From the NCBI GenBank assembly GCA_013314735.1, contig JABUFD010000001.1:806001-870000 (forward strand): 64,000 nt of DNA, written 5' to 3'. The position numbers and the translations under genes were made by a program. Origin of the DNA: Anaerolineae bacterium. Lineage in GTDB: Bacteria; Chloroflexota; Anaerolineae; Anaerolineales; Anaerolineaceae. Within the stretch, counting starts at the first letter, position 1. Each line of letters opens with the position of its first letter. The notes beneath the pieces are model-generated. The model saw only the letters and a list, made by a program, of their open reading frames with translations, was not told where the DNA came from and did not search any database. Positions 2,597 to 64,000 of the stretch are shown here, in pieces.

Positions 2597-2623
2597 TTTA
2601 TCTGTTGAGGTTCACCCGCCGCC

Positions 2624-3340
2624 TTATGTCTCGGTTGGTTCCGGGGTGGCTGATGGGATGGGTGTATGACTGGGTTGCGGCTGCGGGGTTGCTGTTGGTG
2701 CAAGTTTGCCTACATCGACCTTTACATAGAAGGAGGAGGCCGCATTGGCATTGATGCCGAAGACAATTCCTTGTGGTGAACGGAATTTGAAATAGGCAGT
2801 GTACGTACCCTCTGTTTGTGGCGCTTGCAATGTTACGCTGATATTGATTTGTGCCCCGGCAGGCACCTCGATTCCGGTGGTGAGTGGGGTCTCTTCTGGT
2901 GCAGACAAGCCATCAGAGCTGACAAGGATGATCTGGTAATTGGAGGTCCATGTACAGGTGCCCGTATTCATCATTTTCCAGGTTTTGGTGAAGGTTTCGC
3001 CGGCAGAAACCATTGCATTATCGGGGTAGGTGATGTCATCAACGAAAGTCGCAATATTGGTGCAACTTGATTGGGTTGTGACCTGGGTCTGTGGTGTATT
3101 GGTAAGGGCAGGCTTGGTCTCGGTGTTGCGCGGTTGTTCCGTCTCGCGGTTTGTAGGTGTCCGTGTGGGTGTGGATGTACCCGAATTGGTGGCCATGTTG
3201 GTTAATTGAGCCTGAACCGTTCCCGCTGCCTGGGTGTACACTTCCTCAGGTGACTGGGTGGTTTTCGTTCCCGCCGCACAGGAGGCCAACAGCAGGGCAA
3301 AGAGAAGAATGGCAGCCGTGTATTTTAAAAGCCGGTTCAT
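2624..3340 (-). CDS. Lipoprotein with NBR1-type Ig-like domain
   Basis: A 238-residue secreted lipoprotein. The signal peptide ends in LLLASC with Cys21 as lipidation site. A Thr/Pro/Ser-rich linker follows (about 45-92), then one Ig-like domain (about 93-210) with features of the 'next to BRCA1' Ig domain (W-K-M-x-N-T-G-T-C-x-W, then a P-x-x-x-G-x-Y strand). The tail is Pro/Thr-rich. Such domains are frequent in Anaerolineae surface proteins; their ligand is unknown. The start ATG overlaps the stop of the cyclophilin gene (ATGA), so the two are probably translationally coupled, and this is the last gene of the minus-strand operon. Confidence 0.8.
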
Positions 3341-3828
3341 TCTACCTCGGTTTGTTTGACAGCTGCGCTGACTTTCACCATGCGATCACCCTGGCGAATG
3401 GCGTTTACCACATCCATTCCCTCCACAACTTTACCAAAGACAGTGTGTTTGCCATCCAGGTGAGGCTGAGGGCTATGGGTGATGAAAAACTGAGAGCCAT
3501 TCGTATTTGGACCTGCATTTGCCATAGAAAGGACACCCGTTTCATGCTTCAGCGGATTACCTTTGGTCTCATCAACGAATTCATAGCCCGGACCGCCGCG
3601 GCCGGTGCCTGTCGGATCACCGCCCTGGATCACAAAGTTGGATATTACACGGTGAAAGGTCACGCCATTGTAAAAGCCTTCATTAGCCAGAAAGACGAAA
3701 CTGTTGACAGTAATTGGGGCATGTTGGGGGTAGAGCTCGATTTTGATCGTGCCCTTGTTGGTTTCCATGTTTACGACATAGGTTTTTGCCGTATCGATTG
3801 TCATTGGGGGTTGTTTCTTATATTGCAT
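3337..3828 (-). CDS. Cyclophilin-type peptidyl-prolyl cis-trans isomerase
   Basis: A 163-residue single-domain cyclophilin catalysing proline cis-trans isomerisation. Diagnostic motifs are [16 protein letters not shown] (catalytic Arg60), [19 protein letters not shown] and [11 protein letters not shown]. There is no signal peptide, so it is predicted cytoplasmic. The start at 3828 has AAGGA upstream; Met9 is a weaker alternative without a ribosome site. It overlaps the downstream lipoprotein by ATGA and lies 55 nt after the DUF952-YcgN gene in the same operon. Confidence 0.93.
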
Positions 3829-3883
3829 GGTTCATTCCTTTTTGTTTATTTTCCACTCGCCGTTGACCAGCAGGTGGGCTTGG

Positions 3884-4657
3884 TTATTGTAAATCCTCAA
3901 CGATATAATTTTCAAGGTGGTCCATATCGGCTTGTTCTTCAGGCAGGTATTTACCGCAGATGGAAATCCCAGCAGCCCGGACTGAATCCGGACCATGGGA
4001 GTTCAGTGGGTGCCACCAGCGAAGTGGTTTTCCTTCATTCAACAGACGGTAGGCACATGTTTCAGGCATCCAGTCGATTTCCGCGAGGTTGCGGGGGGTC
4101 AGGATGATACAGGTGGGCATGATATCGTGGCGGTGGATGTAATCCGTGCAGCGGCAGGTTTCGGCCTCTAGGAAGCGGCAGGCGACATTGGTGTAGAACA
4201 ATTCATCTGTGTCTATGTCCTGGATCTTATACAGGCAACAACGGGCGCACCCATCGCAGAGCGATTCCCATTGTTCCAGGGTAAGGTATTTAAGAGATGT
4301 TTCCTGCCAGAATTTTGGGTGCGCAAATTCTTCTGGAAAGATATACAAACCATTATCATCTGGATCAAAGTCAATCACCTGGGTGACCGCTTCCAGGTTG
4401 ATTGGTCCATAAACGTGGGGAAACAACTCGGGCAGGTCTTCTCCTTGTTCATACCTTAACGGGAATTCCAGTGTTTCTTCCGTGATTTGCAGCATTTTCA
4501 AACCGGTAGTCTCTTTGAAGATGTTGTTTGCCACACGAGCGACCTGGTCTGCTGTGGAGCAATGGATGAAGCCCTGCGATTCGAGGCTGGCGCAAACATA
4601 GATACCTGTCTCCGTGGCATCCTCCCAATCCTGCCGCAAAGCGATGTGATAGATCAT
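3884..4657 (-). CDS. DUF952-YcgN (UPF0260) fusion protein
   Basis: A 257-residue protein in two parts. Residues 1-112 match the DUF952 family (MIYHIALRQDW start, GFIHCSTADQV motif, acidic LPELFPHVYGPI). Residues 116-250 match the YcgN/UPF0260 Cys-cluster family: FWQETSLKYLTLEQWESLCD, then CxxCxxCC at 134-141, NVACRFLE and TCxC near 159-170, METCAYRLL and WHPLNS. In most bacteria I know of, these are separate genes. The conserved cysteines suggest metal or Fe-S binding, but neither half has an established reaction. The ATG overlaps the stop of the acyl-CoA synthetase gene by four bases, so it is coupled to it. Confidence 0.85.
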   Translation of the reverse strand: MIYHIALRQDWEDATETGIYVCASLESQGFIHCSTADQVARVANNIFKETTGLKMLQITEETLEFPLRYEQGEDLPELFPHVYGPINLEAVTQVIDFDPDDNGLYIFPEEFAHPKFWQETSLKYLTLEQWESLCDGCARCCLYKIQDIDTDELFYTNVACRFLEAETCRCTDYIHRHDIMPTCIILTPRNLAEIDWMPETCAYRLLNEGKPLRWWHPLNSHGPDSVRAAGISICGKYLPEEQADMDHLENYIVEDLQ

Positions 4658-6750
4658 TGGTTTGCACTCTTTTCCAGGATCGCACGGGCATCCAGTGCCA
4701 ATACCCCGTGGGGCAAGGCCAATAGGGGATTGATCTCGATCTCAGCCACACCGGGATGGTTAATTGCCAGGTCACCTATTTTCTGAATTACCTCCGCCAC
4801 GGCATGGAGGTCAGAAGGCTGTGCGCCTCGAGTTCCCTGGAGCAATGTCCCGGCAGCAGTTTCCATGATCATCTTTTCTGCTTCAACCAGGGAGATTGGT
4901 GCAACCCGAAAAGCAATGTCTTTGAACAATTCCACGTAAATCCCGCCGAGCCCAAACATCAGCAACGGCCCGAAATTCGGGTCGCGTTTCATGCCAACAA
5001 TTACCTCGATACCGGCTGGCGCCATGGGTTCGACCAAAACACCATACAGACGGGCTGCAGGGTGATGCTCCCGTACCGAATCCATGATCTGCTGGTAGCT
5101 ATTCCAGGCTTCCTGTTCGTTGTGAATTCCCAGGCGGATACCACCGCTGTCGGATTTGTGAAGGATATCGGGTGAAATGATTTTCATGACAACAGGGAAA
5201 CCAACTACGGCTGCTTTATGGGCGGCTTCATCCTGTGAGGAGGCAGTTTCAGCAGGTACCAGAGGAATACCATAAGCCGCCAATAACGGCCTGGTTTGGG
5301 TTTCTCCCAATACAGCAGAATCAGCTAATGCCAGCAATGAGGTTGCCTGCGGAGCAACGGCCAGGAAGGGCTTGCTGGAATCCTGTCTGGATTGACGATA
5401 TCGGTGATAAGCTGCCATTTTTCCCAGAACAATGGCGCATTGCTCGGGAAAGGCGAATGTGGGAACGTGGTACTTTTGGAGCACCCGATTTGCTTCCAGC
5501 AGGCTGGCATGTCCCATCATGCAGGCCACGATGGGTTTGGCAGAACGGTGTGCCATTTCGCCGATCACAAGTGCCACCTCGGCCGCTGGCACAAGGGCGG
5601 TGGGTACCAGGATCGCAATGGCAGCATCCACCTGCGGATCCGCCATGGCATGGTCAAGAGCGATGCGGTATTCATCGGGCATTGCCCCGCCCAGCATATC
5701 GATCGGATTGTCAACCTGAGCGGCAGGATTAACATGGGCACGGATGGCACTTTTGGTTCTCTCGCTCATTTCGGCCAGGCACATTTGCTGCAGGTCGAGG
5801 GCGTCCGAAGCGAGGGCTGCCGGTCCGCCGGCATTGGTGACAATGACCACCCTGTTGCCTTTGGGCAGTTGTAACATCTCGAATCCAGAAGCAATTGCAT
5901 ATAGATCTTCAAGCGTTTCGGCGACCACAACACCGCTTTGCCGGAAGGCTGCCTGGTACGCAGCGCCAGAGCCAGCCAGTGAGCCGGTGTGCGAAGATAC
6001 CGCCCTGGCACCGGCTTCAGTCCGCCCGGATTTGATTAAAACCACTGGTTTTTTGCGAGTTACCTCCTTGCAAACTTCAATGAAGCGGGAGCCGTTTTGA
6101 ATCGATTCCGCGTAGACAGCAATCACTTTCGCATTTTCATCCGATGCGAGGTATTTGATCATGTCTGTTTCAGTGACATCGACCTCATTACCTAGACTGA
6201 TGAAGTGAGAAAAGCCCATGCCTTTGTCCAGCAAGTAGTCCACCGCTCCACCGCAAACCGCACCAGATTGGGAAACAAATGCGATGTTGCCTTTGGGTGG
6301 TAATCCGTTGATGAAGGTGGTGTTCAAGCCAGAATATAGATCAACGATGCCCACACAATTTGGGCCGACCAATCGAATGCCATGCTGCCTGGCATTGCGC
6401 AGTACCTCCTGTTCAAGAACGCTTCCCTGTTCACCCACCTCTTTGAACCCGCCTGAAATGACAATTACTGCACGGATACCGCGAACTCCGCAATCATTGA
6501 TCGTCTGTGGGATCAACCGGGCCGGTAATACAATAACAGCCAATTCAACAGGGTCAGGCACATCCAGGATGGAAGGATAGCATGCCTTTCCCAGTATCTG
6601 ATTCGTTTTGGGATTGACGGGATACACTTCACCTTGGTATCCGTACTTCAACAAATTTGCAAGTATACCATAGCTGAGTTTGTCCGGGCTGGCTGATGCG
6701 CCGATGACGGCAACCCCTTTTGGTTTAAAAAATTGCTCAATTGGCTGCAT
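4654..6750 (-). CDS. Acetate/acyl-CoA ligase (ADP-forming), fused alpha-beta
   Basis: A 698-residue fused ADP-forming acyl-CoA synthetase, which converts acyl-CoA, ADP and phosphate to acid, CoA and ATP, an energy-conserving step of fermentation. In order: CoA-binding Rossmann domain (VAVIGASASPDKLSYGI near the N-terminus), flavodoxin-like ligase domain with SSHTGSLAGS containing the likely phospho-His, and a C-terminal ATP-grasp domain (about 475-698; GFPVVMKIISPDILHKSDSG, then EIEINPLLALP). Start 6750 is preferred over the longer frame because GGAGG lies 6 nt upstream and the domain begins at once (MQPIEQFFKPKGVAVIG). It leads an operon with the DUF952-YcgN fusion. Preferred acyl group is unknown. 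Confidence 0.93.
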   Translation of the reverse strand: MQPIEQFFKPKGVAVIGASASPDKLSYGILANLLKYGYQGEVYPVNPKTNQILGKACYPSILDVPDPVELAVIVLPARLIPQTINDCGVRGIRAVIVISGGFKEVGEQGSVLEQEVLRNARQHGIRLVGPNCVGIVDLYSGLNTTFINGLPPKGNIAFVSQSGAVCGGAVDYLLDKGMGFSHFISLGNEVDVTETDMIKYLASDENAKVIAVYAESIQNGSRFIEVCKEVTRKKPVVLIKSGRTEAGARAVSSHTGSLAGSGAAYQAAFRQSGVVVAETLEDLYAIASGFEMLQLPKGNRVVIVTNAGGPAALASDALDLQQMCLAEMSERTKSAIRAHVNPAAQVDNPIDMLGGAMPDEYRIALDHAMADPQVDAAIAILVPTALVPAAEVALVIGEMAHRSAKPIVACMMGHASLLEANRVLQKYHVPTFAFPEQCAIVLGKMAAYHRYRQSRQDSSKPFLAVAPQATSLLALADSAVLGETQTRPLLAAYGIPLVPAETASSQDEAAHKAAVVGFPVVMKIISPDILHKSDSGGIRLGIHNEQEAWNSYQQIMDSVREHHPAARLYGVLVEPMAPAGIEVIVGMKRDPNFGPLLMFGLGGIYVELFKDIAFRVAPISLVEAEKMIMETAAGTLLQGTRGAQPSDLHAVAEVIQKIGDLAINHPGVAEIEINPLLALPHGVLALDARAILEKSANQ

Positions 6751-56006: not shown

Positions 56007-56996
56007 TTATATAGTGCCTTGGAGTGCCTCAAGCGCTTGCTGATGGACCAAACCATTCGTCGCCAGAATTCCGGTATTGTTAAGCAGCATGCGTCCGCAG
56101 GTAAAATCCAACGGCTTTCCATCGATGTCTGTAATGATTCCGCCAGCCTCTTCCAGTATGATCGATCCGGCTGCCTGATCCCAAATTTTTTCTTTGTAAT
56201 CCATCCGGTTTGGAGAAAGCATGCGCAATAGAAGGTCTCCCTGGCCTGATGCCAACAGCACATATTTCGCCTGGCTGTCCATCGCGATGGCGGGAATCCG
56301 AGTGCCCAGCCGGGCAAGAAAGTCCTCCGTTCTTCCCGTATCAGTATGGCCGCTTTCAAAAGACCTGAGGAGCCGGATTTTCGAGGTTTGATTGACACTC
56401 GATACCGTCAATCGTTTTTTACCGTTGCTGTCATCTAAAGGGGATATCCAGGCTCCCTGGCCCCGAACAGCAAAGGCTATGCACCCGACCGAAGTCCCAT
56501 CAGTGGTTCCCGACGGCGAGAGATTGGGGCATCCCAGGATTCCGATTTGCACTTTGGCATTTTCAATGAAGGCCAGTGCGACCACGTATTGATCACCGCG
56601 CAGAAAACCTTTTGTGCCGTCGATGGGGTCCAGCGTCCAATATCGATCCCCCGGCGACATGTTCCCGGCATCGATCCAATCCAGAATTTCTGGTGGGGTG
56701 GCCTCCGGGTACTGGAGGTTGACATACTGTACTATTTGTGCAAGCGTGGATGCGTGCTGCGGTTTGCGAATCTCATCTGCATTTTCTTCGCCAACGATCA
56801 CAGTGGCTGGCAAATAGGTATGTAACATCCGTGAAACGACAGCCTGGGAAGCGAAGTCAGCAATGGTAACTGGCGAATTGTCCGATTTATTCAATGCGTC
56901 GATGATGATTTCACGTTGTATCCGTTGCACCAATCGACTGGCCACCTTGACGGCTGCTATGCCATAAGTCAGGTATTGTTCAAAGTCGAATTGCAT
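56007..56996 (-). CDS. 3'(2'),5'-bisphosphate nucleotidase-like phosphatase (CysQ/HAL2 type)
   Basis: A 329-residue IMPase-superfamily phosphatase. Motifs: SPVTIADFASQAVVSRML, IVGEENADEI (metal Glu), RYWTLDPIDGTKGFLRGDQY (DPIDGTKGF, the PAP-phosphatase form) and KIWDQAAGSIILEEAGG. The length and GTKGF favour the HAL2/SAL1 (PAP) type over inositol monophosphatases. It would recycle 3'-phosphoadenosine 5'-phosphate from sulfate transfer. ATG 56996 follows AGGAT. A single gene between divergent DUF711 and the membrane proteins. Confidence 0.87.
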   Translation of the reverse strand: MQFDFEQYLTYGIAAVKVASRLVQRIQREIIIDALNKSDNSPVTIADFASQAVVSRMLHTYLPATVIVGEENADEIRKPQHASTLAQIVQYVNLQYPEATPPEILDWIDAGNMSPGDRYWTLDPIDGTKGFLRGDQYVVALAFIENAKVQIGILGCPNLSPSGTTDGTSVGCIAFAVRGQGAWISPLDDSNGKKRLTVSSVNQTSKIRLLRSFESGHTDTGRTEDFLARLGTRIPAIAMDSQAKYVLLASGQGDLLLRMLSPNRMDYKEKIWDQAAGSIILEEAGGIITDIDGKPLDFTCGRMLLNNTGILATNGLVHQQALEALQGTI

Positions 56997-57091: not shown

Positions 57092-58354
57092 ATGATTATC
57101 CGATCCATCACCTTTTTTACCAATATAGATGAAAACAACAAATTGGAAGACAACTTTACTGTACTGTTGACCAAACTGAGCGTTCGATTACGAGATATGT
57201 TGACTGCGCATGGCGATATGGTTCAAAGCATACGCATGGCAACCAACTCATTTTGTCACTTCCTTTCATTGGGGGATGCATCGAAAGCCATTCAGAAAGC
57301 GATAGAACTCGAACAGGCTGCGATATATGCAGGGGTCGATTACCTCTCACTGGGGCCAGCATTGCCCGGTTTTCCTGGCAGTTATCGCCTGATCCCAGAG
57401 ATTTTGGGTGAAACCAGACGAGTTTTTTTTACAGGGGAGATTGCCAATGCAGAATATGGTGTTGATCTTTCTGCCATCCATCAATGTTCTGCCGTGATCA
57501 AAGCACTGGGTGAGTTGGAAGAAAACGGGTTTGCCAATCTTTTCTTCGCTGCAACAGCGAATCTTCCAGGGCGCATTCCTTTTCTGCCTGCGGCTTATCA
57601 GAACGGAAATGGGAGCGGATTTGCACTGGCAATTGAGGCTGGAGATGTGGCTGTCTCAGCAATCATGAGTGCAGGGACACTGGAGGAGGCCAGGCATTCC
57701 TACATCGAGCAAATTGAGTGGCATGCAAAACGCCTTGAGCAATTGATTCAGGAAATTATCAAAGAACCGCAATTTGAAGAAGTTGAGTTCTACGGGTTTG
57801 ATATGACACCTGCACCATACATTACAGAGGAGCGTTCGGTTGGCACGGTATTGGCCCAATTAAGCGGTGTACCTGTTGGATCCCAGGGTTCTTTGGCCGC
57901 GGCAGCTTTTTTGATGGATGCCCTCGATCAGGCACGGTTTCGACGGTCAGGTTTTAATGGTTTAATGATGCCCGTGTTGGAGGATGTTGTGTTGGCAAAA
58001 AGTGCGGCCGATGGTACCCTCAGCATCCGCGATTTACTGCTCATGTCCACAGTTTGTGGCACCGGGCTGGATACGGTGCCGATCCCAGGAGAAACCAGCA
58101 CACAGGCAATAGAAGCAATCCTGCGTGACGTGGCATTTCTGTCATCACGATTACAGAAACCACTAACTGCCCGATTGATGCCGATTCCCGGAAAGAAAGC
58201 CGGCGAAATGACAGCGTTCCAGTTTGATTACTTTGTTAATACCCGCGTAATGCCAGTGGATGAACCCCATTCCACCGGCAAACTGCCATCCAATGGGCGG
58301 GTTCAAATACACCCCAAATCAAGTTATGCGGTAGATGCGAAACGTTTTGGCTAA
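57092..58354 (+). CDS. DUF711 (UPF0210) family protein
   Basis: A 420-residue DUF711 protein, distantly like ribonucleotide-reductase-type folds. Family parts are IRSITFFTNI, GVDYLSLGPALPGFPG, CSAVIKALGELEENGF with NLFFAATANL, and VCGTGLDTVPIPGETS, the conserved GLDxVxxPG block. Function is unknown. ATG 57092 has AGGAGGA 5 nt upstream. It is convergent with the NYN gene and overlaps it by four bases. Confidence 0.87.
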   Translation: MIIRSITFFTNIDENNKLEDNFTVLLTKLSVRLRDMLTAHGDMVQSIRMATNSFCHFLSLGDASKAIQKAIELEQAAIYAGVDYLSLGPALPGFPGSYRLIPEILGETRRVFFTGEIANAEYGVDLSAIHQCSAVIKALGELEENGFANLFFAATANLPGRIPFLPAAYQNGNGSGFALAIEAGDVAVSAIMSAGTLEEARHSYIEQIEWHAKRLEQLIQEIIKEPQFEEVEFYGFDMTPAPYITEERSVGTVLAQLSGVPVGSQGSLAAAAFLMDALDQARFRRSGFNGLMMPVLEDVVLAKSAADGTLSIRDLLLMSTVCGTGLDTVPIPGETSTQAIEAILRDVAFLSSRLQKPLTARLMPIPGKKAGEMTAFQFDYFVNTRVMPVDEPHSTGKLPSNGRVQIHPKSSYAVDAKRFG

Positions 58355-59109
58355 TCCCTGTCGTCTTTCATGGTGATATAAATTTTTGAGGAAGGGCCTT
58401 CCCGGTTTAATCCCCGAATACGGAACTCATTCTTGTAGGCCTGGATCAAACGTAGTAATTGGCTATGGCCATATGTGCGGGGGTCAAAGCTTGGGTCCAA
58501 TTGCCGCAGCGCATTCCCGATGTCACTGAGAGATGCCCAATCATCATCACCCGCGGCCATGTCAAATGCGCTCTCCAGAAGCGGGATTGGATCCGGCGCA
58601 GCGCTCTTCTCAGCTGCCTGTTGAGCAGCTGCTGGTCGGCGCGATGTGCGTTTGTTGGCGGAAAAGTTTTCTGTGAAGAGGAATACATCACACGCGTTCA
58701 CAAAAGCGCGTGGGGTGGTTTTCTTCCCAATTCCCATGACGAAAATTCCGGTTTCACGGATGCGCGTAGCCAACCGAGTGTAATCTGAGTCACTCGATAC
58801 CAGGCAGTAACTATTTACAGCACCACTATAGAGAATGTCCATCGCGTCGATGATCATGGCGCTATCTGTAGCGTTTTTCCCGATTGTGTAGCGGAACTGT
58901 TGAATAGGTTGAACTGCAAAGGTGTGGAGGGTGTCTTTCCAGCCATTCATATTGGCTGTGGTCCAATCCCCATAAATACGGCGAATGGTGATTGTTCCGT
59001 ATTTGCCAGTCTCTGCGAGAATGTCACTAATCAGTTTGGGTTGTGCGTTGTCGCCATCAATAAGTAGTGCGAAGCGGCGATTGCTTCGGTCTGTGGGTTG
59101 AATTGCCAT
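58351..59109 (-). CDS. NYN-domain protein with OST-HTH/LOTUS domain (LabA/DUF88 type)
   Basis: A 252-residue protein. The NYN (PIN-like) nuclease domain (1-150) has FALLIDGDNAQP, GKNATDSAMIIDAMDILYS and LVSSDSDYTRLATRIRE, with the acidic residues expected of the family. An Ala-rich linker follows, then an OST-HTH/LOTUS domain (about 175-250; WASLSDIGNALRQLDPSFDPRTYGHSQLLRLI). LOTUS domains bind RNA or G-quadruplexes, so an RNA-directed nuclease is likely. It follows an MgtC gene by 22 bases. Confidence 0.87.
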   Translation of the reverse strand: MAIQPTDRSNRRFALLIDGDNAQPKLISDILAETGKYGTITIRRIYGDWTTANMNGWKDTLHTFAVQPIQQFRYTIGKNATDSAMIIDAMDILYSGAVNSYCLVSSDSDYTRLATRIRETGIFVMGIGKKTTPRAFVNACDVFLFTENFSANKRTSRRPAAAQQAAEKSAAPDPIPLLESAFDMAAGDDDWASLSDIGNALRQLDPSFDPRTYGHSQLLRLIQAYKNEFRIRGLNREGPSSKIYITMKDDRD

Positions 59110-59806: not shown

Positions 59807-59885
59807 GTTCCCTATAAATAAAATTGTTGTCTACTCTATTGATTATAGGTGATTCGGTGAAAAATTGACAGGGTAGTTAAAAACT

Positions 59886-59912
59886 GAAGGGCGGCTTTAT
59901 AAGCCGCCCTTC
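59886..59912 (-). terminator. Terminator of the sugar ABC transporter operon
   Basis: A 12-bp perfect stem (59886-59897 with 59901-59912) and a 3-base loop. On the minus strand it is followed by cagttttt. It lies 20 bases past the stop of the binding-protein gene. Confidence 0.92.
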
Positions 59913-59931
59913 ATAAAAACATTGGTTCCGC

Positions 59932-62628
59932 TTAATTCATTTGTGACAACTGATCCTGCAGGATCACGTCGGATTCATCATCGGCAGCGGTGAGGGATTC
60001 AGTCACATCGGCGCCATCGGCGATGGCTGCCATGTAGGATTCGATCACGTCACGGGCAAAGTCATAGCCAGGGACTGGGGGTTCGAAATAGCCGAACGGG
60101 AGCATGTCGAAGGCGGTCTTGTAGGCGGGGTCTGAAGCGAAGTAATCCGTCAGGCCTTCCGCGACGCTCTGGCGAACGGGGAAGTATTGGGACGCGATCG
60201 CCCAACGGGCCTGGATCTCGGGGCTGGTGTAGTACTTGATGAAGAGCCAGGCAGCGAGTTCACGTTCGGGGGTGCTCTTGGGCACAGAAACCGAAGCACC
60301 GTAGACGTTCATGACGGGCTCATCGGTGGTGTGCGGGATGGCCGCGACAGACCATTCGAAGTTGGCGCCATCGGCCACCGCGCTGCCGTAGTAGGGCAGA
60401 CCGGAGGAGGAACCGACCGTGAAGAGGAGGGAACCATTACCGAAATCGGTCTGGTCGCCATAGGCTTCGGTCACGAGCTGGGCGCAGCCTTCGTTGAAGA
60501 GGTCCTGAATGAAGGTCCAGGCTTCGATGGCGGCGGGGGAGTCATAGGTGTATTCACCGGCTTCATAATCGAAGACATCACCGCCGAAGGCGAAGGTCCA
60601 GGAAGCGAAGCGGGAAGCATCAATGCTGAGCTTGTAGCCCATGGAGCCTTCCACGGTGGCACCGGAGAACGGGTTGGCGGCAGCGGCGCAGGCCATCTCT
60701 TTGAACTCAGCCGGGGTGGTGGGGGGAGCGCTGTAGCCCAACTCCTCGAGCCAGTCCATGTTGTAGTAGAGCACTTCCATGGAGCGGTTGGGGGGGAAGC
60801 CAAGGCGCTGATTGCCGAAGTTGGGGAACACATCCTGGGCGAAGAAGCCGGGGAAGAAATCGGCTTTCTCTTCTTCAGTAAGGCCCCAGACAGCGGAATC
60901 AACCAGCGGGTTGAGGTCGGTCATGGCGTCTGCCAGCTGGTAGGTCGCGGCCTGGTTCTGGTAAGCAACAACGATGTCGGGGACGTCCGGGGTGTTGAGG
61001 ATGGGGAGCATCTTGTTGAAGATGTCGCCATACCCACCCTGGTTTTCGGCCACGACGGTGATGCCCCATTCGTTGGTGGCATTGAAGTCAGTCACGATCT
61101 TCTGCAGTTCTTCTTCGCGGGCACCGGAATGCTGGTGCCAGAACACGATCGAAGTCGCTGGGGTGACCTCATCGTAGGGACCGGCCTCGACAACAGGTTC
61201 TTCTGTGGGTTCCGGGGGAACAGGCAGGCTCTGCATTTGTTCTTCCAGGATCACGTCCGATTCATCATCGGCAGCGATGAGGGATTCAGTCACGTCGGCG
61301 CCATCGGCGATGGCTGCCATGTAGGATTCGACCACGTCACGGGCAAAGTCATAGCCAGGGACTGGGGGCTCGAAGTAGCCATACTTGAGCATGTCGAAGG
61401 CGGTCTTGTAGGCGGGGTCTGAAGCGAAGTAATCCGTCAGGCCTTCCGCGACGCTCTGGCGAACGGGGAAGTACTGGGACGCGATCGCCCAACGGGCCTG
61501 GATCTCGGGGCTGGTGTAGTACTTGATGAAGAGCCAGGCAGCGAGTTCACGTTCGGGGGTGCTCTTGGGCACAGAAACCGAAGCACCGTAGACGTTCATG
61601 ACGGGCTCATCGGTGGTGTGCGGGATGGCCGCGACAGACCATTCGAAGTTGGCGCCATCGGCCACCGCGCTGCCGTAGTAGGGCAGACCGGAGGAGGAAC
61701 CGACCGTGAAGAGGAGGGAACCATTACCGAAATCGGTCTGGTCGCCATAGGCTTCGGTCACGAGCTGGGCGCAGCCTTCGTTGAAGAGGTCCTGAATGAA
61801 GGTCCAGGCTTCGATGGCGGCGGGGGAGTCATAGGTGTATTCACCGGCTTCATAATCGAAGACATCACCGCCGAAGGCGAAGGTCCAGGAAGCGAAGCGG
61901 GAAGCATCAATGCTGAGCTTGTAGCCCATGGAGCCTTCCACGGTGGCACCGGAGAACGGGTTGGCGGCAGCGGCGCAGGCCATCTCTTTGAACTCAGCCG
62001 GGGTGGTGGGGGGAGCGCTGTAGCCCAACTCCTCGAGCCAGTCCATGTTGTAGTAGAGCACTTCCATGGAGCGGTTGGGGGGGAAGCCAAGGCGCTGATT
62101 GCCGAAGTTGGGGAACACATCCTGGGCGAAGAAGCCGGGGAAGAAATCGGCTTTCTCTTCTTCAGTAAGGCCCCAGACAGCGGAATCAACCAGCGGGTTG
62201 AGGTCGGTCATGGCGTCTGCCAGCTGGTAGGTCGCGGCCTGGTTCTGGTAAGCAACAACGATGTCGGGGACGTCCGGGGTGTTGAGGATGGGGAGCATCT
62301 TGTTGAAGATGTCGCCATACCCACCCTGGTTTTCGGCCACGACGGTGATGCCCCATTCGTTGGTGGCATTGAAGTCAGCCACGATCTTCTGCAGTTCTTC
62401 TTCGCGGGCACCGGAATGCTGGTGCCAGAACACGATCGAAGTCGCCGGGGTGACCTCATCGTAAGGGTTGGTTTCAGCAACAGGTTCTTCTTCGGTTGTT
62501 GTCTCTTCTGATGTTGTTTCTTCAGCAACCGGGGTTTCTGGTGTTGCTTCTTCACCCTTCTTGCAGGCAACAAAAACCATTGCCAGCATCAATAAAACGA
62601 CTACTACTAAATACAATTTGTTTCTCAT
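59932..62628 (-). CDS. Sugar ABC transporter binding lipoprotein with tandemly duplicated binding domain
   Basis: An 898-residue lipoprotein; family 1 binding proteins are usually about 420-450. The signal peptide ends FVAC with Cys22, followed by an acidic Thr/Glu linker. Two complete binding domains follow, starting YDEVTPATSIVFWHQHSG at residue 56 and again at 485, exactly 429 residues apart. The halves are almost identical except around their ends (MLKYGYF versus MLPFGYF, VVES versus VIES). Both have a full fold and end in an acidic stretch. It belongs to the CUT1 transporter with the permeases downstream in the reading direction. AAGGAGG lies 10 nt before the ATG. Confidence 0.93.
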   Translation of the reverse strand: MRNKLYLVVVVLLMLAMVFVACKKGEEATPETPVAEETTSEETTTEEEPVAETNPYDEVTPATSIVFWHQHSGAREEELQKIVADFNATNEWGITVVAENQGGYGDIFNKMLPILNTPDVPDIVVAYQNQAATYQLADAMTDLNPLVDSAVWGLTEEEKADFFPGFFAQDVFPNFGNQRLGFPPNRSMEVLYYNMDWLEELGYSAPPTTPAEFKEMACAAAANPFSGATVEGSMGYKLSIDASRFASWTFAFGGDVFDYEAGEYTYDSPAAIEAWTFIQDLFNEGCAQLVTEAYGDQTDFGNGSLLFTVGSSSGLPYYGSAVADGANFEWSVAAIPHTTDEPVMNVYGASVSVPKSTPERELAAWLFIKYYTSPEIQARWAIASQYFPVRQSVAEGLTDYFASDPAYKTAFDMLKYGYFEPPVPGYDFARDVVESYMAAIADGADVTESLIAADDESDVILEEQMQSLPVPPEPTEEPVVEAGPYDEVTPATSIVFWHQHSGAREEELQKIVTDFNATNEWGITVVAENQGGYGDIFNKMLPILNTPDVPDIVVAYQNQAATYQLADAMTDLNPLVDSAVWGLTEEEKADFFPGFFAQDVFPNFGNQRLGFPPNRSMEVLYYNMDWLEELGYSAPPTTPAEFKEMACAAAANPFSGATVEGSMGYKLSIDASRFASWTFAFGGDVFDYEAGEYTYDSPAAIEAWTFIQDLFNEGCAQLVTEAYGDQTDFGNGSLLFTVGSSSGLPYYGSAVADGANFEWSVAAIPHTTDEPVMNVYGASVSVPKSTPERELAAWLFIKYYTSPEIQARWAIASQYFPVRQSVAEGLTDYFASDPAYKTAFDMLPFGYFEPPVPGYDFARDVIESYMAAIADGADVTESLTAADDESDVILQDQLSQMN
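59959..61177. repeat. Tandem direct repeat, copy 1 (C-terminal half of the binding protein)
   Basis: This segment recurs 1287 bases to the right (61246-62464). Over its length I find only scattered single-base differences, most of them silent, for example gtattggg/gtactggg and cagtcacg/cagccacg. Similarity stops sharply at both ends. The period is a multiple of three, so the frame is preserved. Confidence 0.95.
61246..62464. repeat. Tandem direct repeat, copy 2 (N-terminal half of the binding protein)
   Basis: The second copy of the 1287-bp-period repeat, separated from copy 1 by a linker of about 68 bases that encodes the acidic Pro/Glu connector between the two binding domains. It starts at the first residues after the lipoprotein linker and ends at the acidic end of domain 1. 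Confidence 0.95.
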
Positions 62629-62668: not shown

Positions 62669-62686
62669 ACGGAGACTGGTCTCCGT
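62669..62686 (-). promoter_or_regulatory. Intercistronic hairpin between permease and binding-protein genes
   Basis: A perfect 7-bp inverted repeat (acggaga and its complement, 4-base loop) lies in the 74-base gap between the MalG-like gene and the binding protein. Read on the minus strand it is followed by taaattttgtttctt. It may be a partial terminator or an mRNA stability hairpin that sets relative expression. Confidence 0.5.
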
Positions 62687-62702: not shown

Positions 62703-63638
62703 TTATCCTTTCAATCCGGTAGTTGCAATGCCCTCCGTAAATTGTTTTTGCGTAATGAAGTATACGATCAAAATCGGTATGAGCGTGATCACAGCACCTG
62801 CCATTAATAGGTGGGTTTGGGGGCCGGCTTCTGTAACAAAATTCCACAAGCCAACCATTATTGGTCGTTTCACATCGCGTGTGGTTACCAATAGCGGCCA
62901 CATAAAGGAGTTCCAAGAACCGATAAACCCGAATAGCAGGACGGTCATAATCGGTGCTTTTGAAATGGGGAGAACAATCTGAAACAGGTAACGGAGATGA
63001 CCTGCCCCATCGATGCGTGCCGCGTCATACAGTTCTGACGGCATTTGCTGGAAGAATTGCCGCAACAGGAAGATGCTAAAGGCATTTGCCATAAAAGGTA
63101 TAGTCAGGGCTTGCAATGTATTCAACCAGGAAGCCCCGAAGGTAAAGTTCTGGAATTGGCAGGCCAGAACCTGACCACCTGCGCCCACGCACGCATCAAA
63201 GGCACGCGAATCCACGCCTGGTAGTGGGATGATGGAGCCGCGCACCAGCAACAAGGAGGGAAGTACGGTGACTGATTCCGGCACCATCATGGTTGCCAGG
63301 AGGATGGCAAAGATAATATTCTTGCCAGGAAATTTGATGCTGGCAAATGCGTAACCTGCCAGGATCGAATTGATCATCAACCCAAGCAATGAAACCGTGG
63401 TGATGATGACGCTGTTTTTAAAGTAAACGCCAAAATTGGCTTGTTTCCATGCCTCAGCATAGTTGCCCCATTGCGGTGTCTGAGGGATCCAGGCACGGTT
63501 GATGGTTTCACCCAGTGACATAAATGATGTGGAGATCATCCAGAAGAAAGGCGTCATGGCAATTATGGCGCCTACGATCAGGATCAAATACAAAATTGCC
63601 CGACCGATGATGCGAACAAGCCTGCTATGTTTAGCCAT
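62703..63638 (-). CDS. CUT1 sugar ABC transporter permease (MalG/UgpE-like)
   Basis: A 311-residue inner-membrane permease. The EAA-type loop is SELYDAARIDGAGHLRYLFQ with the invariant Gly, and the C-terminus FITQKQFTEGIATTGLKG is typical of MalG/UgpE. It contains an extra periplasmic stretch (about residues 135-175, with two Cys) between helices 3 and 4 that usual MalG proteins lack. ATG 63638 follows AAGGTG and overlaps the stop of the upstream permease gene by eight bases. Confidence 0.88.
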   Translation of the reverse strand: MAKHSRLVRIIGRAILYLILIVGAIIAMTPFFWMISTSFMSLGETINRAWIPQTPQWGNYAEAWKQANFGVYFKNSVIITTVSLLGLMINSILAGYAFASIKFPGKNIIFAILLATMMVPESVTVLPSLLLVRGSIIPLPGVDSRAFDACVGAGGQVLACQFQNFTFGASWLNTLQALTIPFMANAFSIFLLRQFFQQMPSELYDAARIDGAGHLRYLFQIVLPISKAPIMTVLLFGFIGSWNSFMWPLLVTTRDVKRPIMVGLWNFVTEAGPQTHLLMAGAVITLIPILIVYFITQKQFTEGIATTGLKG

Positions 63639-64000
63639 AGAACACCTTCTTTCCAAGAAGTTTGTTTTGCGCGAAGGTCAAACCGGCGATGATGATGAAA
63701 AGGACGATGGCTTGCGTGGCAGCATAGCCAAAGTTGTTGGCTTTGTAAAAGGTATCAAATATGTTGAGGCTGGCGGTAATCACGCTGTTCTGGGCGGAGG
63801 GCACCCGCATCACATAAAGGTGGTTGAAGGCTTTAAAGGTGCCGATGAATGATATCAGCAACAGGTAGAATGACACCGGCGAAATCAGGGGAAAGGTGAT
63901 ATGCCAGAAAAGGTGCCACCCATTCGACCCGTCAATCTCGGCGGCTTCATAGATTTCTTTTGAAATGCTTCCCAGGCCGGCCAGGTAAATCACAGCATCA
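63631..64000 (-). CDS. CUT1 sugar ABC transporter permease (MalF/UgpA-like), 5' end outside window
   Basis: The last 122 residues of a permease; the frame runs through the window edge, so the start is missing. The EAA loop is KEIYEAAEIDGSNGWHLFWH, followed by ITFPLISP and two further membrane segments. It overlaps the MalG-like gene by eight bases, so the operon order is MalF-like, MalG-like, binding protein. Any ATPase or regulator upstream is not in view. Confidence 0.9.
   Translation of the reverse strand, partial: DAVIYLAGLGSISKEIYEAAEIDGSNGWHLFWHITFPLISPVSFYLLLISFIGTFKAFNHLYVMRVPSAQNSVITASLNIFDTFYKANNFGYAATQAIVLFIIIAGLTFAQNKLLGKKVFYG

Follow-up and report, generated by a model that had tools for sequence, protein, structure and literature searches.

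A tandem solute-binding lipoprotein in Anaerolineae that may present two nucleotide sites on one lipid anchor

Free-standing receptors of ATP-binding cassette (ABC) importers are usually regarded as single-site proteins. Here we describe a second, near-identical binding domain in a lipoprotein encoded by an Anaerolineae bacterium. Its gene lies in a stretch of 64,000 nucleotides (GenBank assembly GCA_013314735.1, contig JABUFD010000001.1, positions 806,001 to 870,000), referred to here as the window. With moderate confidence, we read the product as a lipoprotein with two equivalent, independent nucleotide or phosphodiester sites that would feed one importer with UgpA/UgpE-like permeases. The parts of the gene, in window positions, are as follows.

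59932-62628, minus strand: tandem solute-binding lipoprotein gene, 898 amino acids, ATG start, uninterrupted frame, SBP_bac_8 in two stretches.
62563-62628, minus strand: signal peptide and lipobox with Cys22 as the predicted lipid anchor; single lipobox-like motif found by pattern only, lipidation predicted from it.
61246-62490, minus strand: copy 1, binding domain 1, amino acids 47-461, from self-comparison at shift 1287.
61475-62378, minus strand: identical 904-nucleotide core within copy 1, from mismatch positions and a placement test.
61204-61245, minus strand: joint between the repeat units, amino acids 462-475, read from the sequence, without a lipobox-like motif.
59959-61203, minus strand: copy 2, binding domain 2, amino acids 476-890, from the same self-comparison, with ligand-site residues as in copy 1.
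60188-61091, minus strand: identical 904-nucleotide core within copy 2, from mismatch positions and the placement test.

When the gene was compared with itself at shifts of 1200-1399, only the spacing of 1287 nucleotides exceeded the reporting threshold of 0.33 identity. The copies differ at 14 of 1221 nucleotides (codons 55-461), with 10 of the 14 differences in codons 415-457. Mismatches at 60187 and 61092 bound the identical core in copy 2, and when 14 changes were placed uniformly 100,000 times, no gap as long as this one arose. The domain ends are less conserved than the middle also in comparison with five relatives, so the clustering of copy differences is partly ordinary. Synonymous divergence (dS) is 0.053 between the copies and ~1.3 to a congener (L041). 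We infer that the copies arose through in-frame tandem duplication of the domain. Recent gene conversion has probably kept the middle alike; alternatively, the duplication itself is very recent and only its ends have diverged since.

The product matched PF13416 (SBP_bac_8) in two stretches (3e-68, 231.1 bits against a cut-off of 27), and a pattern search found a single lipobox-like motif, at Cys22. An AlphaFold2 model of amino acids 47-475 (domain 1) had a mean predicted local distance difference test score (pLDDT) of 93.5. The stretch EEQMQSLPVPPEPT stands between copy 1 (amino acids 47-461) and copy 2 (476-890), and the joint sequence, EEQMQSLPVPPEPTEEPVVEAG, is rich in proline and glutamate. 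A first-pass annotation of this DNA had described an in-frame 1287-bp repeat with few differences, one lipid anchor, two intact binding domains and an acidic linker ('acidic' being fair), and had proposed recent duplication or gene conversion; all of this agrees with what we found.

We next consider what the domains bind. E. coli UgpB was aligned with 50 domains for residue mapping, and its phosphate-coordinating quartet was placed at what we take to be Y65, S144, S270 and Y346, using UgpB residues and a steady offset of one, later four. Both window domains carry this quartet (Y104/Y533, S187/S616, S311/S740 and Y386/Y815), together with a conserved arginine (R430/R859). Excerpts of PMC12718374 describe the Tyr/Ser/Ser/Tyr set in UgpB and in glycerophosphocholine- and dinucleotide-binding proteins, and glucose-binding proteins as lacking it. 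As far as these residues can tell, a phosphate ester is well supported as the ligand.

The nearest protein by sequence was of the 7c0f type (29-30% identity in structural alignment). In one search, 7c0f gave an E value of 3.4e-32, compared with 1.8e-17 for the best UgpB (9lff) and 1.7e-16 for E. coli UgpB (6x84); domain 1 alone matched 7c0f at 1.2e-32. The first six Foldseek rows all belonged to the dinucleotide-binding 7c14/7c0 series, and the PDB titles of the 7c0f series name a dinucleotide-binding protein with uridylyl-3'-5'-phospho-guanosine. A beta-glucoside receptor was considered and was dropped, as the entry titles of 7c0f say dinucleotide. Excerpts of PMC12718374, citing Chandravanshi 2021, assign the series to Thermus thermophilus.

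Eight positions are mutated in the 7c0f series, and their contact with ligand is deduced from the entry titles. In each window domain, five of them are unchanged (Y56, N81, S127, Y224 and Y246), two are conservatively replaced (F79 by Tyr, T240 by Ser) and one differs (Q274, Tyr in both domains). Asn129 corresponds to N81, and all 40 transporter-type rows have Asn there. This count drops 10 of the 50 tree rows, namely the eight domains of four tandems described below that lack permease neighbours, and the long branches L014, which lacks the first Tyr, and L015, which keeps the quartet. From these comparisons, the balance of probability falls on a nucleotide.

The genes around the receptor follow the order nuclease-like gene, UgpA-like permease, UgpE-like permease, receptor and terminator-like hairpin.

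G000:C9:870898-872817 (contig positions, outside the window), next upstream of permease 1: extracellular-nuclease-like lipoprotein gene, lipobox recognized by eye.
63631-64000, minus strand, continuing to G000:C9:870794: permease 1, UgpA/MalF-like, 387 amino acids, BPD_transp_1 over cut-off.
62703-63656, minus strand: permease 2, UgpE/MalG-like, 317 amino acids, BPD_transp_1 over cut-off; best NCBIfam match UgpE (1.7e-37), below cut-off.
62669-62686, minus strand (L064:4686-4669): hairpin between permease 2 and the receptor gene.
59885-59913, minus strand (L064:1913-1885): terminator-like hairpin 3' of the receptor gene, 13 pairs and a T tail.

The best NCBIfam match of permease 1, whose gene runs past the window end, was UgpA (2.9e-20, below cut-off). 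The scanned region held seven terminator-like sites, where shuffled sequence gave 7.5 on average, and the hairpins are therefore consensus matches only. Only one OB_MalK match was found in the genome, far from the receptor locus, so the ATPase is probably shared. No ATPase was found among those neighbours in the window that were tested for their family. The E. coli ugp operon, by contrast, has its own ATPase gene, ugpC.

The nuclease-like product passed the Pfam cut-offs of Exo_endo_phos and Exo_endo_phos_3 and matched NF033681 (ExeM/NucH) over positions 3-511 of 546 (4.3e-46, 157.9 bits against a cut-off of 300). No second ExeM/NucH-like match was found in the window genome. Such genes were counted where a locus extended 2.5 kb or more upstream, excluding second copies of one genome; no two of the resulting 23 loci share a stretch at 97% identity. 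In 11 of the 23, a nuclease-like gene precedes the permeases; these are the window genome and 10 relatives (L040, L043, L047, L048, L050, L052, L060, L105, L119 and L120). Seven nuclease-positive loci are in the 50-domain tree described below, all within one 13-row clade (99/96).

Other genes nearby were recorded as well. The window encodes a HAL2-type 3'(2'),5'-bisphosphate nucleotidase (56007-56996, minus strand, over the NCBIfam cut-off) and a protein combining NYN and OST-HTH/LOTUS domains (58351-59109, minus strand). In some relatives, histidine-kinase-like genes and, by eye, response-regulator-like genes lie downstream of the receptor (L105:6803-8607, L040:11223-13068); the histidine-kinase-like family was tested on the L043 homologue.

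The locus thus combines one lipobox-like motif, two intact domains, the conserved permease-permease-receptor order and a nuclease-like gene directly upstream. The ligand and the benefit of the second domain are our inference. In the mechanism we favour, the nuclease would cut DNA or RNA outside the cell, and the two receptor domains would close, each on its own, on a short nucleotide released in this way or on a comparable phosphodiester. Both would be able to dock on the one permease pair and deliver their ligand, and a MalK-type ATPase whose gene lies elsewhere would power the uptake. With the second domain, each lipid anchor would have twice as many capture sites and could keep a loaded one near the permease. 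Since the copies are near-identical, more sites are expected rather than a second specificity. By analogy, it is most likely that each domain captures ligand alone and that either delivers to the permeases; linked domains of GlnPQ bind independently and keep separate affinities, according to excerpts of PMC8025302.

Several observations weigh against this mechanism. The nuclease-like gene was not found at 12 of the 23 distinct loci (L053, L054, L056, L057, L063, L094, L095, L100, L101, L102, L107 and L108), and in G142 (L094) a polyphosphate kinase gene stands in its place. The nuclease, UgpB, UgpA and UgpE models all scored below their curated cut-offs. In VIA-align, the highest rank went to M. 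tuberculosis UgpB (Z 42.8), and the dinucleotide series (39.4-39.9) scored like several sugar-binding proteins (39.4-40.8); therefore, the fold by itself does not discriminate between ligands, sugars included. Modelling of the full tandem reached a mean pLDDT of only 39 (three sequences), giving no domain arrangement. Finally, a GH3 glycosidase-like gene lies divergently beyond the nuclease-like gene (L064:8869-11802, G000:C9:872869-875802). Its product also has C-terminal esterase-like matches, below cut-offs.

The alternative that survives best, although doubtful, is UgpB proper, a receptor for glycerophosphodiesters or glycerol phosphate, with its domain doubled and the nuclease an unrelated neighbour. 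The fold, the conserved phosphate quartet, the arginine and the UgpA/UgpE-like permeases are shared with the E. coli and M. tuberculosis UgpB systems, the latter protein having the highest Z, and UgpB (NF008211) was the best NCBIfam match of the receptor (6.6e-37). That match scored 127.1 bits, far below the cut-off of 411. Moreover, unlike UgpB, the window protein has a doubled domain and lacks the Trp-Trp glycerol clamp, which is replaced by Tyr236/Ser239 and Tyr665/Ser668, and the Glu of UgpB is Gln. Asn129 and Tyr294 agree with the dinucleotide protein and stand at positions where E. coli UgpB carries Val and Asp.

We also examined relatives for the duplication. In a survey of the class, 116 of 396 genomes matched at E 1e-100, and eight of the matching genomes carry tandem genes: that of the window (G000), G142, G247, G364, G383, G394, G245 and G276. 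The G247 tandem reaches a contig end, and locus L038 is the same DNA. L037 brings the total to nine, the window and eight other genomes. The tandem-gene check leaves out loci L002-L008, L064 and L065. A scan of 27 loci from close relatives gave two tandems (L037, and L038 with its second copy cut by the contig), four C-terminal PhnD-like fusions (L040, L042, L043 and L063), three other contig-cut genes (L041, L059 and L061) and 18 single-domain genes. A further 36 genomes from the genus or family gave no tandem match, among them G001, where a contig end truncates the gene. At E 1e-130, a sample of the phylum had matches in 7 of 400 genomes, of which only the window's is tandem by open-frame length. 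Comparison with the same gene in related genomes, which the first-pass annotation had advised, thus revealed tandems in eight others, with copy identities of 51-95%.

Copies 1 and 2 share 96% identity in the window, 95% in L038 (partial), 92% in L066, 88% in L068 and 79% in L037, compared with 58%, 57%, 56% and 51% in L088, L091, L092 and L085. A pattern search found no lipobox-like motif at the junction of any tandem; the pattern also occurs within a domain in L037, L068, L085 and L092, which we took as chance. We built a maximum-likelihood tree of 50 domain rows, some of them truncated (L041, the second domain of L038). It omits 22 named loci, being additional copies within one genome, near-identical or truncated sequences, or very distant ones, as well as genes whose best domain scores <250 bits. 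Six of the nine tandems have copies that are each other's sisters: the window (100/99), L037 (95/88), L038 (100/99), L066 (100/100), L068 (100/98) and, on long branches, L085 (100/100). In L088, L091 and L092, all of one genus, first copies group together and second copies likewise. This pattern points to one duplication that predates the three species, without homogenization since.

Because single-domain genes stand between the tandems in the tree, about seven independent origins would be the economical reading. One ancestral tandem, followed by conversion in almost every lineage, would require fewer origins, and is less economical given these interleaved single-domain genes. The ratio of nonsynonymous to synonymous divergence (dN/dS) between copies is 0.10-0.39 in the nine pairs, and dS exceeds 1 in the four oldest; as judged from these ratios, the tandem copies are under purifying constraint.

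These results bear on the possibility that the duplication is neutral and transient and brings no benefit. It would suit the very recent date of the window copies (dS 0.053) and the lack of tandem matches in the 36 other genomes of the genus or family, where the contig-cut G001 is included. We nevertheless consider it improbable, as the tree shows recurrence in six other lineages, one duplication has outlived three species, and the copies appear constrained (dN/dS 0.10-0.39).

For four of the tandems, no permease genes were found in the 11.7-16 kb around them (L085, L088, L091 and L092, extended as L096-L099; orphan tandem genes at L096:6538-9342, L097:3408-6095, L098:6755-9424 and L099:6917-9592). 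In their eight domains, the phosphate- and dinucleotide-site residues are largely lost. The five tandems beside permeases (the window, L037, L038, L066 and L068) keep the phosphate set, L038 as far as readable. This suggests that the ligand-site residues are tied to transport and that the orphan tandems may do something else.

Furthermore, the family gains other domains. The four PhnD-like fusions are single lipoproteins (L040:5935-8388, L042:2792-5110, L043:5991-8306 and L063:5995-8415), their PhnD-like identity being checked against NCBIfam for L040 and L042. Each lies between UgpAE-like permeases and phnC/phnE-like genes, which follow in all four cases, the L063 PhnE match being weak and at a contig end. 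Cut-offs were passed for PhnC and PhnE by the L043 neighbours and for PhnE by the L040 neighbour. Possibly, such a fusion is one receptor for two importers. C-terminal PhnD fusions rest on these four loci of the close-relative scan; in the class sample, none was found in 14 matching genomes of 392 at E 1e-190, looser thresholds being uncounted.

Three long frames of the class survey, and no other matches, were opened for N-terminal fusions. In L125 (G203; 2695-5778, minus strand), two PhnD-like domains, identical at 245 of 279 aligned residues (88%), precede SBP_bac_8. A Bmp/PnrA-like domain precedes it in L126 (G365; 2599-5100, minus strand), PnrA being a nucleoside receptor. No extra domain was found in the third frame, L127. 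All six fusion proteins (L040, L042, L043, L063, L125 and L126) have one lipobox-like motif each. Elsewhere, paired paralogous receptor genes stand side by side, unfused (L128:3330-6238, L129:2418-5576).

We regard as quite improbable a gluco-oligosaccharide receptor whose two domains hold one multivalent sugar, a role resembling one offered in the first-pass annotation. The CUT1-type family, the GH3 glycosidase-like gene and the similar Z scores of sugar-binding proteins are compatible with it, and the fold alone does not exclude sugars. It is weakened by the phosphate quartet in both domains, which excerpts of PMC12718374 report as absent from glucose-binding proteins, by the dinucleotide protein as nearest sequence, and by the PhnD-like and PnrA-like fusion partners in relatives; a GH3 match >55 bits occurs beside only one other locus of 43 (L107, 126 bits). 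Taken together, the nearest sequence, the residues, the permease type and the neighbouring nuclease favour a nucleotide or other phosphodiester over a sugar.

An assembly artefact, about which the first-pass annotation had worried, is unlikely as the source of the second copy, and doubling of a single-domain gene by misassembly is barely credible: copy identity is high, the 904-nucleotide core is identical and the congener contig (G001, L041) stops inside the gene near the divergence point of the window copies, so a tandem is not confirmable there, but the copies differ at 14 sites and have distinct ends, the joint is in frame, the contig is large (G000:C9, 1,337,622 bases, in a 4.09-Mb genome of 13 contigs), and eight other genomes have a tandem too, in most of them with copies that have clearly diverged and in three of them from one shared old duplication. 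As a test of the tandem, the congener G001 (L041/L106), whose contig ends within the gene, neither confirms nor refutes it.

Linked binding domains are already known as permease fusions, as in GlnPQ, and the SBP_bac_8 domain family is itself known. Partial accounts of GlnPQ and OpuA describe more than one binding domain per transporter, with two linked in tandem in GlnPQ. As far as those accounts go, the GlnPQ tandem is fused to the permease and its ligand specificities differ, whereas the window tandem is a separate lipoprotein of near-identical copies and its permeases are separate genes. The solved 7c0f chain comprises a single domain of 406 residues, compared with a pair of such domains on the one anchor of the window protein. 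No free-standing tandem CUT1-type receptor was among the matches listed in open PMC full text, subscription papers being outside the scope. The PhnD- and PnrA-like fusions have the same SBP_bac_8 family and one lipobox-like motif, and the domain added to them is of another family. The tandem had been called unusual for a CUT1 lipoprotein; its free-standing layout is indeed unusual, but it is less isolated than that implied, as binding-domain fusion recurs in the family.

More tentatively, a modular family of polyvalent receptors for nucleic-acid salvage in Anaerolineae might be built around the SBP_bac_8 domain. Lineages would repeatedly add domains to it, whether its own copy, a PhnD-like domain, a doubled PhnD-like domain or a PnrA-like domain. 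One anchor would thereby show several sites for the products of extracellular DNA, self-tandems perhaps gripping one oligonucleotide twice, and the PhnD fusions would serve two ABC importers at once. A second site gained several times, with copies now 51%-96% identical, provides a natural experiment on the value of extra sites. DNA-degrading potential has been proposed for Anaerolineae from genomes, as described in excerpts of PMC8289736. If the nucleotide assignment is true, the receptor would be a candidate for the step by which Anaerolineae take up extracellular DNA.

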